From: Catenulispora sp. MAP5-51
Lineage (GTDB): Bacteria > Actinomycetota > Actinomycetes > Streptomycetales > Catenulisporaceae
Length of the DNA stretch: 64,000 nucleotides
Reading direction: 5' to 3'
NCBI RefSeq assembly: GCF_041261205.1
Contig: NZ_JBGCCH010000006.1
Span: 310,001 to 374,000 of the forward strand
The notes beneath the pieces were generated by a model, which was not told the origin of the DNA, ran no database searches, and saw only the letters and a program-made list of their open reading frames with translations. This document shows positions 7,651-12,314 of the stretch, piece after piece. The translations under genes and the position numbers were made by a program. The stretch's first letter is position 1, and the number at the start of each line of letters is the position of its first letter.

Positions 7651-10395
7651 CTACTGGTTGCCGGACCAGTTGTCCGGGCCGGCGGTGTCCACGGCCTTCT
7701 TCGCGGCGGCGTCCAGCCACGGCGCGATGCTGGTGGACTGCGAGTGGTTCACGGCCAGCGCCACCGACAGGATGATGTAGCGGTGCTGCTGCTCGCGGTA
7801 CTGCTTGATGGTGGCCGACTGGTAGTCGCCCTGGCAGGTCGTCGAGCCGGGGCCGCTGCCCGGGCACCAGATGCCGAAGTCGGCGGCGGACTGCTGCGCG
7901 AGGTCGTTGTAGACCGTGGTCGCGGTGTGCTGGTCGGGCAGCGGGAGGACCTTGACGGAGACCAGGTACTGGCCGCTGTCGTCGACGTAGGCGGCCGCGA
8001 TCTCCTTGCTGCAGCTGTTGGAGGTCAGGATGTCCTGCATGTTCGAGGACATGTCGGTCTGCACGCAGGGCTGCACGCTGCCGGCCTTGAGCGTGTAGTG
8101 CACGCCCTTGTCGTCGGTGAACTGCTGCGGCACCAGCGCGTCGAGCTCCAGCGGCGTCTTGTCGGTCTGGAAGGCGTTGAGCTGGGCCGGGTCGAACGGC
8201 GTCGAGGTCAGGGCGGGCGGCGAGTCGGTGCTGGTCGCGGTGTCGGAGCCGTCGCTGGAGGTGTCGCTGCCGGTGTCGGTCGGCACCGAGTCGTCGGAAC
8301 TCGACGTCGAGGAACCGGTCGGGAAGTTGGTCCCGGGCACCGACGACGGCCCGGTCGGACCCGCGTTCGACGAGGCCGTGGAGTGCCCGGCGTTGCCGAG
8401 CGTGTCGGAGGACCCGCTGCCGTTGCTCCGCGTGGTGAGCACCACCAGCGACACCACCGCCGCGACCGCGGCCACCGCCCCGACGATGATCGCCGCGGTC
8501 TTGCCGCCGTTGCCCTTGCCGGGCGGCGGCCCCTGCTGGGGGAAGTAGGGCGGCTGGTTGGGCGGGTACGGGGGCTGGCCGGGGCCGGGGCCGGGGCCGG
8601 GGCCCGGGCCCCATGCGCCCTGCTGCGGCTGGGGGCCGGGGCCGCTTTGCTGCCAGGCGCCTTGCGGCTGGGGCTGGGGCTGCGGCTGGCCAAAGGGCTG
8701 GGGTTGGGGCTGCGGCTGGCCCAAAGGCTGGGGCTGCGGGGGCTGAAGCCACGGGTTCGGGGCGCCGCCGGGCGGGACCGCGTCGGCGGCCTGGGTCGGC
8801 GGGGTCGCGAACGGCTGCGGCTGCGGCGGGACAATGTCGGCGGCCTGCGTCGGGGCGACGAAGGGGTTGTTCTGCGCCGGCGCCGGCGCCGGGGACGGAA
8901 CGGGCTCGGAGAGCGCGGCCGCCGGGATGGGGAGCGCGCGGGTCGCCGAGTCGTCGGGGGAGGAGATCTCCTGGGTGGGCGACTCGGGGATCGCGTCGGA
9001 GGCCGCTGCGGTCTCGACGATCGGGACGGGGCGGGTGATGGTGGAGTCGGCGTCGGGGGCGGTGACGGGCGACGGGACAATCTGGGTGGCGTCGGCGTCG
9101 GCCGTGTCGGCGGCAGCGACCAGCGGTACTTGGCGAGTGGGATCCTCGCTGCTGTCGCTGTCGCTGTCGGGCGCCGGGACCTGCTGGGTCACCTCGGCAT
9201 CACCATCGGCGTCGGCAGCTGCGACCAGCGGCACTTGGCGAGTGGAGTCCTCGCTGCCGTCGCTGTCCGGAGCCGAGATCTGCTGAGTGGCCTCGGCGTC
9301 TTCGGGCTCGTCGCTGGCGTCGCTCTTGCTCACGCTGTCCGGAGCCGAGGCCTCCTGGGCGACCTCATCACGCTCAGCGGAGTCGTCCTCATCGTCAGCG
9401 TCTTCACCGTCAGCTTCCTCGTCATCGTCGAGGAGCTCCGAGGGCGACATGGCCTGTGTGGCGTCGTTCGTGTCAGCGCCCTCGGTCACGTGCGTCGCGT
9501 CCGGGTCGGCGCCGTCCTCAGCGTCATTGTCCTCGTCGTCGTCGAGCAACTCGGAGGGCGACATCGCCTGCGTGGCGTCGTTCGTGTCAGCGCCCTCGCT
9601 CACATGCGTCGCCTCCGGGTCGTCCTCGGCCGAGTCAGCCGAGTCAGCCGCCTCAGCAGCCTCGGCGCTCGCCGTCTTCGCCTCGTGCAGGGTGTCGGCG
9701 CCGTGGGCGGCGTCGAGGGGGGCGCCGAGGCGGGACAGTTCCGCGAAGGTGCGGTCCAGGGTGGTGTCGCGGTCGGCTTCCTGGTCGCGCAGGGTGCTGA
9801 TCAGGGGGGCGAGGGTTGGTTGGTGCGGGGGTTCGGCGGGGCGGTCGGGGTGGCCTTCGGCGGCCAGGTGCAGGGAGGTGGCGAGGGTGGCGAGGTCGTT
9901 CTCCGTCGTCTCGATGGGGAGGAGGAGGACTTGGCCGTCGTCGGTGAGGAGGATGTGGTCCGCGGTGGCGGCGATGCGGGGGCCTGTTGCGGACAGGGCC
10001 GTTATGGCGCCGGCTGCGATCAGGAGGACCTGCTCGGCCGGGAGCGCGCCCCATTGGGACACGGCCTCGGTGAGGGTGCGGGCCGCTATCGGTTCGGTCA
10101 CCAGCCAGGCGCCGGCGTCGCCGGTCGCGGTGCCGGTCACCGGTAGGACGCCGCGGCGGTCTCGCCAGCGGTCGGTGTTCAGGGCGTCGGCGGTGTCGAG
10201 GGCGCTGGTCGCGCCTTCGTCGTCGCCGGCGCTGTCGCCGTCCCGCGCCGGTGCCGCGATCGGTATCAGCACCACTTCGGTGCCGCCGGTCTCGTCGTGC
10301 GCCCGCCACGCCGGCCCCAGCGGCTCGCCGGTCCGGTATCGTCCGGCGACCAGATCCCCACGCTGTACGGACAAGGCCCCGCCCTCCCTCGTCAT
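7651..10395 (-). CDS. Membrane pseudokinase with T-Q/T-R motif ladder and four-Cys sensor domain
   Basis: 914 residues. Residues 18-230 are a degenerate Ser/Thr kinase domain: G-R-Y-R-T-G-E-P-L-G-P-A-W aligns to the neighbouring kinase but has lost five glycine-loop residues. The catalytic Lys is replaced (V-V-L-I-P), and neither H-R-D nor D-F-G is present (I-L-L-T-D-D-G-Q-V-L-L-L-P-I). Residues 260-328 hold a 38-residue repeat, 370-485 alternating T-Q and T-R motifs, and 520-625 Pro/Gln-rich sequence. A membrane helix at about 633-655 is followed by an extracytoplasmic domain homologous to that of the kinase encoded upstream (V-L-P-L-P-D, F-G-I-W-C-P). ATG 10395 lies 20 nt after the kinase stop with AGGGA before it, so they are probably co-transcribed. 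Likely a kinase substrate or scaffold (inference). Confidence 0.8.
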   Translation of the reverse strand: MTREGGALSVQRGDLVAGRYRTGEPLGPAWRAHDETGGTEVVLIPIAAPARDGDSAGDDEGATSALDTADALNTDRWRDRRGVLPVTGTATGDAGAWLVTEPIAARTLTEAVSQWGALPAEQVLLIAAGAITALSATGPRIAATADHILLTDDGQVLLLPIETTENDLATLATSLHLAAEGHPDRPAEPPHQPTLAPLISTLRDQEADRDTTLDRTFAELSRLGAPLDAAHGADTLHEAKTASAEAAEAADSADSAEDDPEATHVSEGADTNDATQAMSPSELLDDDEDNDAEDGADPDATHVTEGADTNDATQAMSPSELLDDDEEADGEDADDEDDSAERDEVAQEASAPDSVSKSDASDEPEDAEATQQISAPDSDGSEDSTRQVPLVAAADADGDAEVTQQVPAPDSDSDSSEDPTRQVPLVAAADTADADATQIVPSPVTAPDADSTITRPVPIVETAAASDAIPESPTQEISSPDDSATRALPIPAAALSEPVPSPAPAPAQNNPFVAPTQAADIVPPQPQPFATPPTQAADAVPPGGAPNPWLQPPQPQPLGQPQPQPQPFGQPQPQPQPQGAWQQSGPGPQPQQGAWGPGPGPGPGPGQPPYPPNQPPYFPQQGPPPGKGNGGKTAAIIVGAVAAVAAVVSLVVLTTRSNGSGSSDTLGNAGHSTASSNAGPTGPSSVPGTNFPTGSSTSSSDDSVPTDTGSDTSSDGSDTATSTDSPPALTSTPFDPAQLNAFQTDKTPLELDALVPQQFTDDKGVHYTLKAGSVQPCVQTDMSSNMQDILTSNSCSKEIAAAYVDDSGQYLVSVKVLPLPDQHTATTVYNDLAQQSAADFGIWCPGSGPGSTTCQGDYQSATIKQYREQQHRYIILSVALAVNHSQSTSIAPWLDAAAKKAVDTAGPDNWSGNQ
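8940..9290 (-). repeat. Coding ladder of alternating T-Q-x-[V/I] and T-R-x-V-P-[L/I] motifs
   Basis: Within the pseudokinase, Thr 370, 403, 437 and 474 are followed by Gln (E-A-T-Q-Q-I, E-V-T-Q-Q-V, D-A-T-Q-I-V, S-P-T-Q-E-I). Thr 385, 420, 454 and 485 are followed by Arg (D-S-T-R-Q-V-P-L, D-P-T-R-Q-V-P-L, T-I-T-R-P-V-P-I, S-A-T-R-A-L-P-I). The two kinds alternate strictly. Confidence 0.85.
9412..9618 (-). repeat. Two tandem 38-residue coding repeats in the pseudokinase linker
   Basis: Residues about 260-290 and 298-328 are near-identical copies containing A-T-H-V, E-G-A-D-T-N-D-A-T-Q-A-M and S-P-S-E-L-L-D-D-D. The unit is 114 nt. Both copies contain a D-A-T-Q motif (Thr275 and Thr313). Confidence 0.85.
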
Positions 10396-10415: not shown

Positions 10416-12314
10416 TTACTGGGCCGCGACCTGCGGTCCGCCCAGCTTCGCCGCGCTGGTGGCGGCGGGCTGGAGCCAGGACTGCGCGGACTTGTCCGAT
10501 GTGAGGTTCGCGTAGAGCGAGACCGCGTGGATCAGGTACCGGTGGTCCGGCTGGATGTAGCCGTACTGCTGGGCGTTGGCGGTGTTCTTGTTCGACGTGC
10601 AGATGTCGGAGCCCGGGCCGGTCTTGGGGCACCAGATGCCCCAGTCCTCGACCGTGAACGCCGTCTTGGCCTGCATGTTCGTGAACGCTGTCTTCGCCGT
10701 CTTGGCGTCGGGCAGCGGAAGCACCGCCACGTCGACCATGATGCGGCCCGCGCTGTCGGTGTAGGTGCCGATCGCTTGGGTGTCGCACTTGTACTGCGTC
10801 AGCATCGCCTTCAACTGCGGGCTCTCATAAGAGTTGACGCACTTGTCGGTCCAACGGTTGGTCGCCGTGTACACGACGCCCTTGTCGTCCGTGAATGTCA
10901 CGGGCAGCAGCGCGTCCGTGGTGAACGGCGTCTGGTCCGTCGAGGACGAGTCCCAGGTCGCAGGATCCGTGGACGAGGCCGTGGTCGGCGTGTCCGAGGG
11001 CTGCGAGGAGTCCGGCCCGTTCACCGTCGCCGACGCTCCCGAGGCCGGGGCCGAACGAGGCGGAGAAGTCGAGCTCGAAGGGGTGGTGGCCGGGGGAGTG
11101 CTCGCGGTCTGGGTCTTCTTGCCGCCTCCGCCGGACAGCGCGATCGCCGCGACGACTCCGCCGACGACCACCAGCGCGCCGACACCGAGGCCGAGGCCGA
11201 CGTTGCGCCCCGTGTTCTTCTTCGGTGCGGGCATCGGTGAGGGCATCGGTGCGGGCATTGGAGCGGGCATCAGCGAGGGCTGGAAGATGGGGGGCGGGCC
11301 CATGGGTCCGGAAGGTATGCCCTGCGACGGATAAGGAGTCTGCGAGCTGGAGCCGGGGCCGAACCCGCCGGGCATCCCGAAGCCAGGAGTACTGCTGCTC
11401 CCATTCGTCCCGGCCACCATCGTCACCGGCACAAAAGGATTCGCCATCCCGCCACCCGGCGTCGCCCCGCTGAGCCGCTCCAGCTCCGCCCGCGCCCGGG
11501 CCGCGTTCCAGCGGGTCGCCGGGGCCTTCGTCAGCAGACCGCTGATCAGCGGCGCCAGCGCGGGAACCCGCGTGACCGGCGTCGTCTCCTCGAACAGGAT
11601 CGCCGTCAGTACGCCGACAGCCGTGTCGCGCAGGAAGGGCGAGCGGCCCTCGGTGGCGAAGAACAGGGTCGCGCCGAGGGAGAACAGGTCGGAGGCGCCG
11701 TCACTGGCCTCGCCGCGGGCGCGCTCGGGGGCCACGTACTCCGGGGAGCCGATCAGGACGCCGGAGGCGGTCATGGTGAGGTCGGCTTCCTGGACCGCGA
11801 TGCCGAAGTCGGTGAGCAGGACGCGGCCGTCTGTGGTGAGCAGTACGTTCGCCGGCTTCACATCGCGGTGCAGGATGCCGGCCGCGTGGCTGGCGGTGAG
11901 GGCGTCCAGGACGCCGAGGCCGATCTTGGCGACCTGCTCCTGGGGGAGCGGGCCGTGCCGTTCGACGGCCTGCAGGAGGTTCTGGGAGGGGATCAGGTCC
12001 ATGACGATCCACGGCATGCCCTTGTCGGACACCATGTCGTGCACGGAGACGATGTGCGGGTGGTTGCGCATCCGGGCCGCGTTGCGGGCCTCGCGCTGCG
12101 CGCGCTCCAGGCGCTCGGCGCGCTCGGAGTCCGACAGCATCGGCGGCAGCCAGACCTCCTTGACCGCCACGTCGCAGTCCAGCGATTCGTCGTGCGCCCG
12201 CCAGACGCGGCCCATGCCGCCGGCGCCGAGCCGTTCGATGAGCCGGTACCGCCCGGCGACCAGGATCCCCTCCGCGCCGTGGCTGTCCTGCCCGTTGTCT
12301 TGTTCCCCAGCCAC
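10416..12314 (-). CDS. PknB-type membrane Ser/Thr protein kinase
   Basis: 632 residues. The kinase domain is complete: glycine loop G-A-G-G-M-G (30-35), ATP lysine K52 in D-V-A-V-K, catalytic H149-R150-D151 with K153 and N156, D169-F170-G171, and A-P-E in the activation segment. A Pro/Met-rich juxtamembrane segment (about 285-368) leads to a single membrane helix (371-394). The extracytoplasmic domain of about 170 residues contains four cysteines (T-D-K-C-V, Y-K-C-D, I-W-C-P-K, D-I-C-T); no PASTA repeats are present. ATG 12314 gives a start just before the conserved G-R-Y-R-L-I. Its tandem paralogue downstream has a dead kinase domain, so this gene is the probable enzyme of a two-gene unit. 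The ligand of the outer domain is unknown. Confidence 0.93.
   Translation of the reverse strand: MAGEQDNGQDSHGAEGILVAGRYRLIERLGAGGMGRVWRAHDESLDCDVAVKEVWLPPMLSDSERAERLERAQREARNAARMRNHPHIVSVHDMVSDKGMPWIVMDLIPSQNLLQAVERHGPLPQEQVAKIGLGVLDALTASHAAGILHRDVKPANVLLTTDGRVLLTDFGIAVQEADLTMTASGVLIGSPEYVAPERARGEASDGASDLFSLGATLFFATEGRSPFLRDTAVGVLTAILFEETTPVTRVPALAPLISGLLTKAPATRWNAARARAELERLSGATPGGGMANPFVPVTMVAGTNGSSSTPGFGMPGGFGPGSSSQTPYPSQGIPSGPMGPPPIFQPSLMPAPMPAPMPSPMPAPKKNTGRNVGLGLGVGALVVVGGVVAAIALSGGGGKKTQTASTPPATTPSSSTSPPRSAPASGASATVNGPDSSQPSDTPTTASSTDPATWDSSSTDQTPFTTDALLPVTFTDDKGVVYTATNRWTDKCVNSYESPQLKAMLTQYKCDTQAIGTYTDSAGRIMVDVAVLPLPDAKTAKTAFTNMQAKTAFTVEDWGIWCPKTGPGSDICTSNKNTANAQQYGYIQPDHRYLIHAVSLYANLTSDKSAQSWLQPAATSAAKLGGPQVAAQ

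Follow-up and report, generated by a model that had tools for sequence, protein, structure and literature searches.

A repeated threonine motif in the linker of a Catenulispora membrane pseudokinase, a putative multisite docking array for FHA proteins

What use might a catalytically dead kinase have for a long linker filled with recurring threonine motifs? The question is raised by a gene at 7654-10395 (minus strand) in a 64-kb window of Catenulispora sp. MAP5-51, the window being the whole stretch of DNA that was analysed. The gene encodes a protein of 914 residues that comprises a kinase-like domain, a linker that is acidic and then Pro/Gln-rich, a hydrophobic stretch, a Ser/Thr-rich stalk and a conserved domain. 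Judged from its sequence and that of its relatives, this protein has lost all catalytic motifs, carries a 10-fold array of motifs whose class is conserved, and is encoded next to an active paralogue. On balance we favour reading the linker of this single-pass membrane pseudokinase as a disordered stretch in which many threonines, once phosphorylated, would serve as docking sites for FHA proteins. Signalling proteins probably land on it in its phosphorylated state, since a looser form of its motif sits in core cell-wall signalling proteins of relatives, and FHA docking is favoured because the MviN tail and the PknB linker of Mycobacterium tuberculosis dock FhaA once they are phosphorylated.

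Threonine motifs in the pseudokinase linker

Read from the sequence, a linker of about 400 residues separates the pseudokinase domain from the hydrophobic stretch near residues 634-655, a predicted transmembrane helix that was recognized by eye after GKGNGGKT (8431..8496, minus strand). The Ser/Thr-rich stalk that follows (8218..8430, minus strand) would be extracellular. Within the linker, direct reading located a ladder of eight threonines (8926..9288, minus strand), the codons of Thr370 to Thr485 occupying 8941-9288. The T-Q members are followed by QQI (Thr370), QQV (Thr403), QIV (Thr437) and QEI (Thr474), and the T-R members by RQVPL (Thr385 and Thr420), RPVPI (Thr454) and RALPI (Thr485). 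Two more threonines, Thr275 and Thr313, sit within NDATQAMSPSEL and are held in a 114-nucleotide (38-residue) duplication (9416..9622, minus strand), each within TQAMSPSELLDDD. The residue numbers and motifs listed in the initial annotation were all exact, and the D-A-T-Q duplication of 38 residues that it described was recovered by Tandem Repeats Finder as a 114-nucleotide unit at 9416-9622, with 1.8 copies and 90% matches. Beyond the ladder noted there, direct reading and orthologue comparison add two PTQAAD boxes (Thr516 and Thr534; 8782..8865, minus strand), which hold further T-Q pairs with no hydrophobic residue at +3. One to three such boxes were seen per orthologue, none of them with a hydrophobic +3 residue.

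The density of the ladder motif is real, strong and far beyond chance. T[QR]x[VILM] occurs ten times in linker residues 227-545, a count that none of 100,000 shuffles reached (mean 0.19, maximum 4). Counted per 130 residues, the pseudokinase gene has eight matches, with three as the highest value in 1,572 other sampled genes; for the narrower T[QR]x[VIM][PS] the values are seven and at most two. This background of 1,573 genes, window included, was predicted by a simple rule on GC content at third codon positions (GC3) over about 2.06 Mb of the same genome. Kinase frames of the genome carry at most two ladder motifs per 130 residues (42 frames at 50 kinase loci, eight loci having yielded no frame under the HRD pattern), and there is no ladder in the linker of the neighbouring kinase at 10416..12314.

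Six Catenulispora orthologues could be compared over the array, five of them whole (G003, G004, G006, G007 and G008) and one, G005, as two unjoined pieces; G001, G002 and G009 were left out as their contigs end before or inside the linker. What is kept in all seven species is the motif class, summarized as T[QR]x-hydrophobic-[P/S]: both TQ-x-[MIV]-[S/P] and TR-x-[VL]-P are present in each of them, in G005 on separate pieces. Out of 20,000 shuffles, none attained the T[QR]x[VILM] count of the window, G008, G004, G006 or G007, 3 attained that of G003, and 38 and 9 those of the two pieces of G005. No ladder motif was found among the 74 threonines of the seven orthologous Thr-rich stalks. Of 46 motif threonines, 40 have an Asp or Glu among the three preceding residues (-1 to -3), as compared with 98 of 141 other linker threonines (pooled Fisher P 0.02). 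Copy number and order of the array drift while the motif class stays, and in the last unit of G006 both threonines are kept while Q is replaced by E and R by K. Linker length varies as well, from 319 residues in the window to 455 in G004, which is swollen by Asp/Ser/Thr repeats. In this orthologue (locus L043, minus strand) a very long repeat of these residues separates the T-Q part of the linker from the T-R part.

The initial annotation had read the strict alternation of T-Q and T-R as two codes, for two readers or two kinases. The order of motifs differs in every orthologue: it is QQ-QRQRQRQR in the window, QQ-RQQRRQR in G008, Q-RQRRQR in G004, QQ-RRR in G006, QQ-RQRRR in G007 and QQ-R in G003, and G005 is likewise short. 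Strict alternation is thus found in one of the seven species, the window alone, and none of the six orthologues keeps it. Over all ten window motifs there are seven switches out of nine (permutation P 0.12); two of 70 possible orders of the eight selected motifs alternate, which is a post hoc count. We therefore rejected strict alternation as a code. The idea of a ruler was rejected too, because the distances between motifs change from one orthologue to the next. The two-code idea is not supported by these orders, and the alignment of orthologues retains the motif class and neither the Thr positions nor their spacing. Runs of alternation can arise without any code because units of two motifs get copied. 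A 105-nucleotide tandem repeat within the ladder (9066..9267, minus strand; Tandem Repeats Finder, 2.0 copies, 80%) carries one T-Q and one T-R per unit, and G007 contains a second copy, 38 residues on, of a different T-Q/T-R unit (T-Q 304 and 342; T-R 326 and 364). Strict alternation looks like a by-product of duplications in one species.

Degraded kinase domain and active neighbour

The pseudokinase domain spans residues 1-226 (9718..10395, minus strand), as delimited by alignment with the active neighbour, a structural model and VIA-align. The neighbouring kinase gene (10416..12314, minus strand) lies upstream; its product matches Pfam Pkinase (E 3.7e-40) and has GxGxxG, HRD and DFG all present. 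Aligned with it, the pseudokinase has a shortened Gly loop and has lost Lys, HRD and DFG. When pseudokinases were aligned with three active neighbours, all three pseudokinase rows lacked an equivalent of Lys, HRD or DFG, and 33 alignment columns (177-209) were absent from all three, so that the activation segment is deleted. Such complete degradation of the catalytic motifs is of the ActPs3 type; this group, in which MviN is placed, is described by the loss of all catalytic motifs and a deletion in the activation loop, and a membrane region follows in many of its members (PMC12599244). Bulky residues that fill the ATP pocket and a back-to-back dimer are also described for the group (PMC12599244).

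The whole 914-residue protein matches no Pfam family at E up to 1, and phmmer with the pseudokinase domain against PDB sequences returned nothing meaningful. The model of the domain has a predicted local distance difference test score (pLDDT) of 81. Its best VIA-align rows are the Rv3910/MviN pseudokinase (Z 17.6, root-mean-square deviation 3.2 over 204 residues), TNIK (17.0) and PknB (16.6), and Foldseek ranks Staphylococcus aureus Stk1 first and MviN second by E-value. The evidence leans against common descent with MviN-type pseudokinases. In a quick tree of 49 kinase-domain rows, which used 29 of the 50 kinase loci and left out the own kinase L135 and the G006 partner (missed by the pattern), the pseudokinase clade groups with the neighbour kinases (support 65, not starred). 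Constraining it to one clade with nine MurJ-linked pseudokinases was 23.4 log units worse (approximately unbiased test, p-AU 0.046). By analogy, the pseudokinase may nevertheless work like MviN.

The putative extracellular domain (residues 727-914; 7654..8217, minus strand) was delimited by genus comparison and a weak fold match. It is 80-96% identical in nine other genomes of the genus and homologous to the ectodomain of the neighbour kinase (39% identity), which agrees with a local duplication. A fold search with its model (pLDDT 61.5) gave no match at E up to 0.001; the weak matches to TiME (E 3.6e-3) and to the PknH sensor (E 4.9e-3) have a probability of 0.99 but a template modelling score (TM-score) below 0.4 on a low-confidence model.

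Matches to the partner kinase and the pseudokinase lie on one contig in eight of the nine other Catenulispora genomes (G002 to G009); in G001 a partner-like kinase is at a contig edge and the ectodomain on another contig. When residues 1-226 were compared to 41 genomes, eight of nine other genus members matched at E 1e-48 or better. Among 31 genomes of other genera the best match had E 1.5e-9, at about 30-40% identity, one genome was without match, and the matches were read as ordinary kinases. When 84,980 named genomes were scanned with patterns for close relatives, the four loci recovered were all in Catenulispora. By these comparisons the pseudokinase is genus-specific.

Related threonine motifs in wall-growth proteins

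Kinase domains are found at 50 places in the genome, 48 of them above the cut-off, and FHA domains at 13. FHA neighbourhoods were examined as likely readers of the array, and orthologues of their genes were then read in up to 25 genomes. One neighbourhood we take, by gene order and sequence, to be the pknB-pbpA-rodA-pstP-fhaB-fhaA cluster, in which only the FHA and kinase domains were tested. Three genes of this cluster bear a T-x-x-hydrophobic motif outside their folded domains. In the juxtamembrane linker of PknB (loci L311-L334), T..[VILM][PS] was read in all 24 orthologues, as TRAMP in 9 of 9 Catenulispora and as T[ST]MLPP in 10 of 10 Streptomycetaceae. A scripted count gave 21 of 24, with 1.95 expected, because three tails had been trimmed to zero length. 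The tail of RodA has TQxV or T..MP in 20 of 23 orthologues (loci L226-L249). All eight Catenulispora tails contain T[EQ][PA]MP and TQAVP (per-tail p 0.006-0.047), and TQA[IM] was also seen in this long tail. The Streptomycetaceae proteins end in EMTQVVRP (10 of 10, some with one extra Ser); of the other tails, two have TQVV and three have none. In the TQVV-type tails the Val is followed by Arg, Gln or a Leu that precedes Arg, not by Pro. The RodA motif is a candidate phospho-site. In FhaB, all eight Catenulispora sequences have TQ[QA]V ahead of the FHA domain, the next residue being Pro or Ser in three and Ala in five, and it was found in none of 15 genomes of other genera.

G003 was dropped from the RodA and FhaB counts, its best matches being Streptomycetaceae-like and on contig C9; G005 was dropped from the RodA, FhaB and PknB counts, and G003 from the MurJ-linked count below, as no orthologue was found. 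The FhaB and RodA genes on contig C9 (L220, L240) are 58-59% identical to those of the window's genome and probably reflect contamination in a Catenulispora bin. The PknB and a RodA fragment of G003 match Catenulispora at 95-97%.

The genome also encodes an MviN-like pseudokinase beside MurJ (L170, minus strand), as a separate gene that is not fused to it, and its tail contains TTVMP and TTAMP. TTVMP and TxAMP occur in 9 of 9 Catenulispora tails (per-tail p 0.005-0.015), TQx[VL]P in 8 of 10 Streptomycetaceae and T-x-x-[VL]-P in 3 of 5 remaining orthologues. A PDB sequence search with this pseudokinase did not place MviN among the best 60 of 95 matches. Across the kinase linkers of the genome, T..[VILM][PS] occurs 19 times against 8.1 expected by shuffling, in the 38 of 50 loci from which a linker could be cut, its boundaries being placed by an approximate rule. 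The threonine motif is shared, in a form looser than T[QR]x[VIM][PS], with the linkers whose M. tuberculosis counterparts dock FhaA. The initial annotation had proposed a multisite phospho-acceptor platform with a hydrophobic +3 residue, and the motifs of PknB, RodA, the MurJ-linked pseudokinase and FhaB lend that proposal comparative support.

Candidate function and alternatives

If the linker is a phosphothreonine docking array, it would be cytoplasmic and disordered, and its threonines would be phosphorylated in trans by the paired active kinase, perhaps after pairing of the ectodomains, or by PknB. FHA-domain proteins could then bind the phosphorylated threonines, and the many sites might confer avidity or a graded output. 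The working mode would resemble that of MviN and FhaA, with many sites replacing one short tail. In M. tuberculosis, the tail of the MviN pseudokinase is phosphorylated by PknB and then recruits FhaA (PMC12599244), and the phosphorylated juxtamembrane domain of PknB binds FhaA (PMC12077195). PknA-dependent sites in this species prefer acidic residues before the Thr (-1 and -3 to -6), Leu or Val after it (+3) and Pro on either side (-1 and +2) (PMC7164672); Thr-x-Pro, Pro-Thr and Glu-x-x-Thr are also among its preferences, Glu-x-x-Thr and Thr-x-Pro being tied to PknA/PknB inhibition (PMC5845002). The initial annotation had likened the ladder to sites of mycobacterial kinases. The acidic and +3 preferences are indeed found in it, and the Pro preferences in places. 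Seven threonines are phosphorylated in the juxtamembrane domain of Streptococcus pneumoniae StkP (PMC12077195). The excerpted account of the PknB phosphoproteome of Streptomyces albus names FolK, GroL, CslA and SppA, none of which is among the proteins compared here (PMC13432765), and among the matches listed in our literature search no description of such an array was found.

Several observations weigh against a phosphothreonine docking array. The preferences given for mycobacteria in the available text of PMC7164672 and PMC5845002 do not include Arg or Gln at +1, the phosphorylated linker threonines of StkP do not match the substrate motif of that kinase (PMC12077195), and the Streptomyces coelicolor PkaI sites listed in MreC and PBP2 do not visibly follow T-x-x-hydrophobic-P in the excerpts of PMC4416010. 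There is no FHA domain within the 64-kb window. In the array itself, individual threonines vary (Thr370 is matched by Pro in G008), a central T-Q is missing from G006, and the acidic trend is reversed in G004 (4 of 7 motif threonines, 31 of 34 others). Outside it, the motif is looser than in the ladder, with +1 often neither Q nor R, and a looser pattern is easier to meet; +4 is Arg in Streptomycetaceae RodA (TQVVR) and Ala in five of eight FhaB. The TQx[VL]P of Streptomycetaceae MurJ-linked tails is not significant singly (p 0.24-0.45, for stretches that ran past the membrane helix), the related genomes are not independent, and the PknB/RodA/FhaB cluster was chosen partly post hoc.

Some of these features could be expected if the linker were a disordered spacer with meaningless motifs, expanded neutrally by slippage or recombination. 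The tandem repeats at the DNA level, the swollen Asp/Ser/Thr repeats of G004 and the drift in copy number and order all suit such an expansion. We hold it to be improbable, since every linker or piece holds more motifs than its shuffles do, also where the copies are not the window's duplicates, since all seven species retain TQ-x-[MIV]-[S/P] and TR-x-[VL]-P in a linker that otherwise changes, and since the looser motif recurs in unrelated wall proteins.

The same conservation could serve peptide docking with no phosphorylation, for example by a wall-synthesis or cytoskeletal partner that reads T-R-x-V-P directly. Residues beyond the Thr are conserved (R/Q at +1, V at +3, P at +4), as such a partner would demand, and a +1 Arg lies outside the mycobacterial kinase preferences in the excerpts of PMC7164672 and PMC5845002. 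The last unit of G006, where Q and R change and both threonines remain, weighs against such a partner, and looser relatives of the motif are found in linkers used for phospho-docking in M. tuberculosis (PMC12599244, PMC12077195), so that this explanation too seems unlikely to us. Many copies of a substrate-like motif on a catalysis-free protein beside an active paralogue would also befit a decoy or sink, one that captures FHA proteins or kinase activity and thereby determines the level at which PknB or the paired kinase takes effect. A mere sink, however, would have no need of an ectodomain that is 80-96% identical across the genus, and we give this role a low probability as well. A phosphothreonine docking array for FHA proteins remains the explanation that we prefer.

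Among known systems, MviN (Rv3910/MurJ) with FhaA is similar in being an actinobacterial membrane pseudokinase with the three catalytic motifs gone, the activation segment deleted and a Thr-bearing tail beside the domain. The window pseudokinase differs from it in that it is not MurJ-linked (another pseudokinase gene adjoins MurJ in the genome), has many motifs where MviN has a short tail, possesses its own ectodomain and groups weakly with the neighbour kinase in the tree. HER3/ErbB3 is an animal receptor pseudokinase whose tail of repeated phospho-motifs is used by an active paralogue, with tyrosine in place of threonine and SH2 readers. It resembles the present protein as a receptor-like pseudokinase with repeated motifs beside an active paralogue, and no homology is claimed. 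The juxtamembrane domains of M. tuberculosis PknB and S. pneumoniae StkP likewise have several threonines between kinase fold and membrane; both proteins are active kinases, however, and the PknB linkers of the relatives hold one motif each in the counted stretch. StkP differs further in that its sites are off its substrate motif and its host, like other streptococci, is without FHA domains (PMC12077195). PknH-type mycobacterial receptor kinases may be similar in their ectodomain, to judge by the weak fold match of a low-confidence model, and differ in that the window protein has no Pfam family at E up to 1 and has lost catalysis.

Known bacterial phospho-tails that recruit FHA proteins have single or few sites. 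If our explanation is correct, a pseudokinase with seven to ten motif copies would be a multivalent version of such a tail, and avidity, graded response or condensate formation would be possible. The looser motif in the tails of PknB, RodA, the MurJ-linked pseudokinase and FhaB could also be used as a rule for picking candidate FHA docking sites from the sequences of Catenulispora and Streptomyces relatives, which would be useful where many kinases meet many readers, as in this genome. More tentatively, and with doubt prevailing, T-x-x-hydrophobic(-Pro/Ser) might be an order-wide phosphothreonine code that links PknB, RodA, the MurJ-linked pseudokinase and Catenulispora FhaB in a wall-growth network read by FHA domains, with the Catenulispora kinase/pseudokinase pair bearing the multivalent array as a bacterial counterpart of HER3.

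Minor observations concern the gene itself. The sequence NPFV stands just ahead of the first PTQAAD box and is also present in the linker of the neighbour kinase (NPFVPVTM), perhaps as a trace of duplication. Long reverse-strand frames over the pseudokinase gene (e.g. 7744-10146, plus strand) were judged by eye to be shadows of its high GC content.

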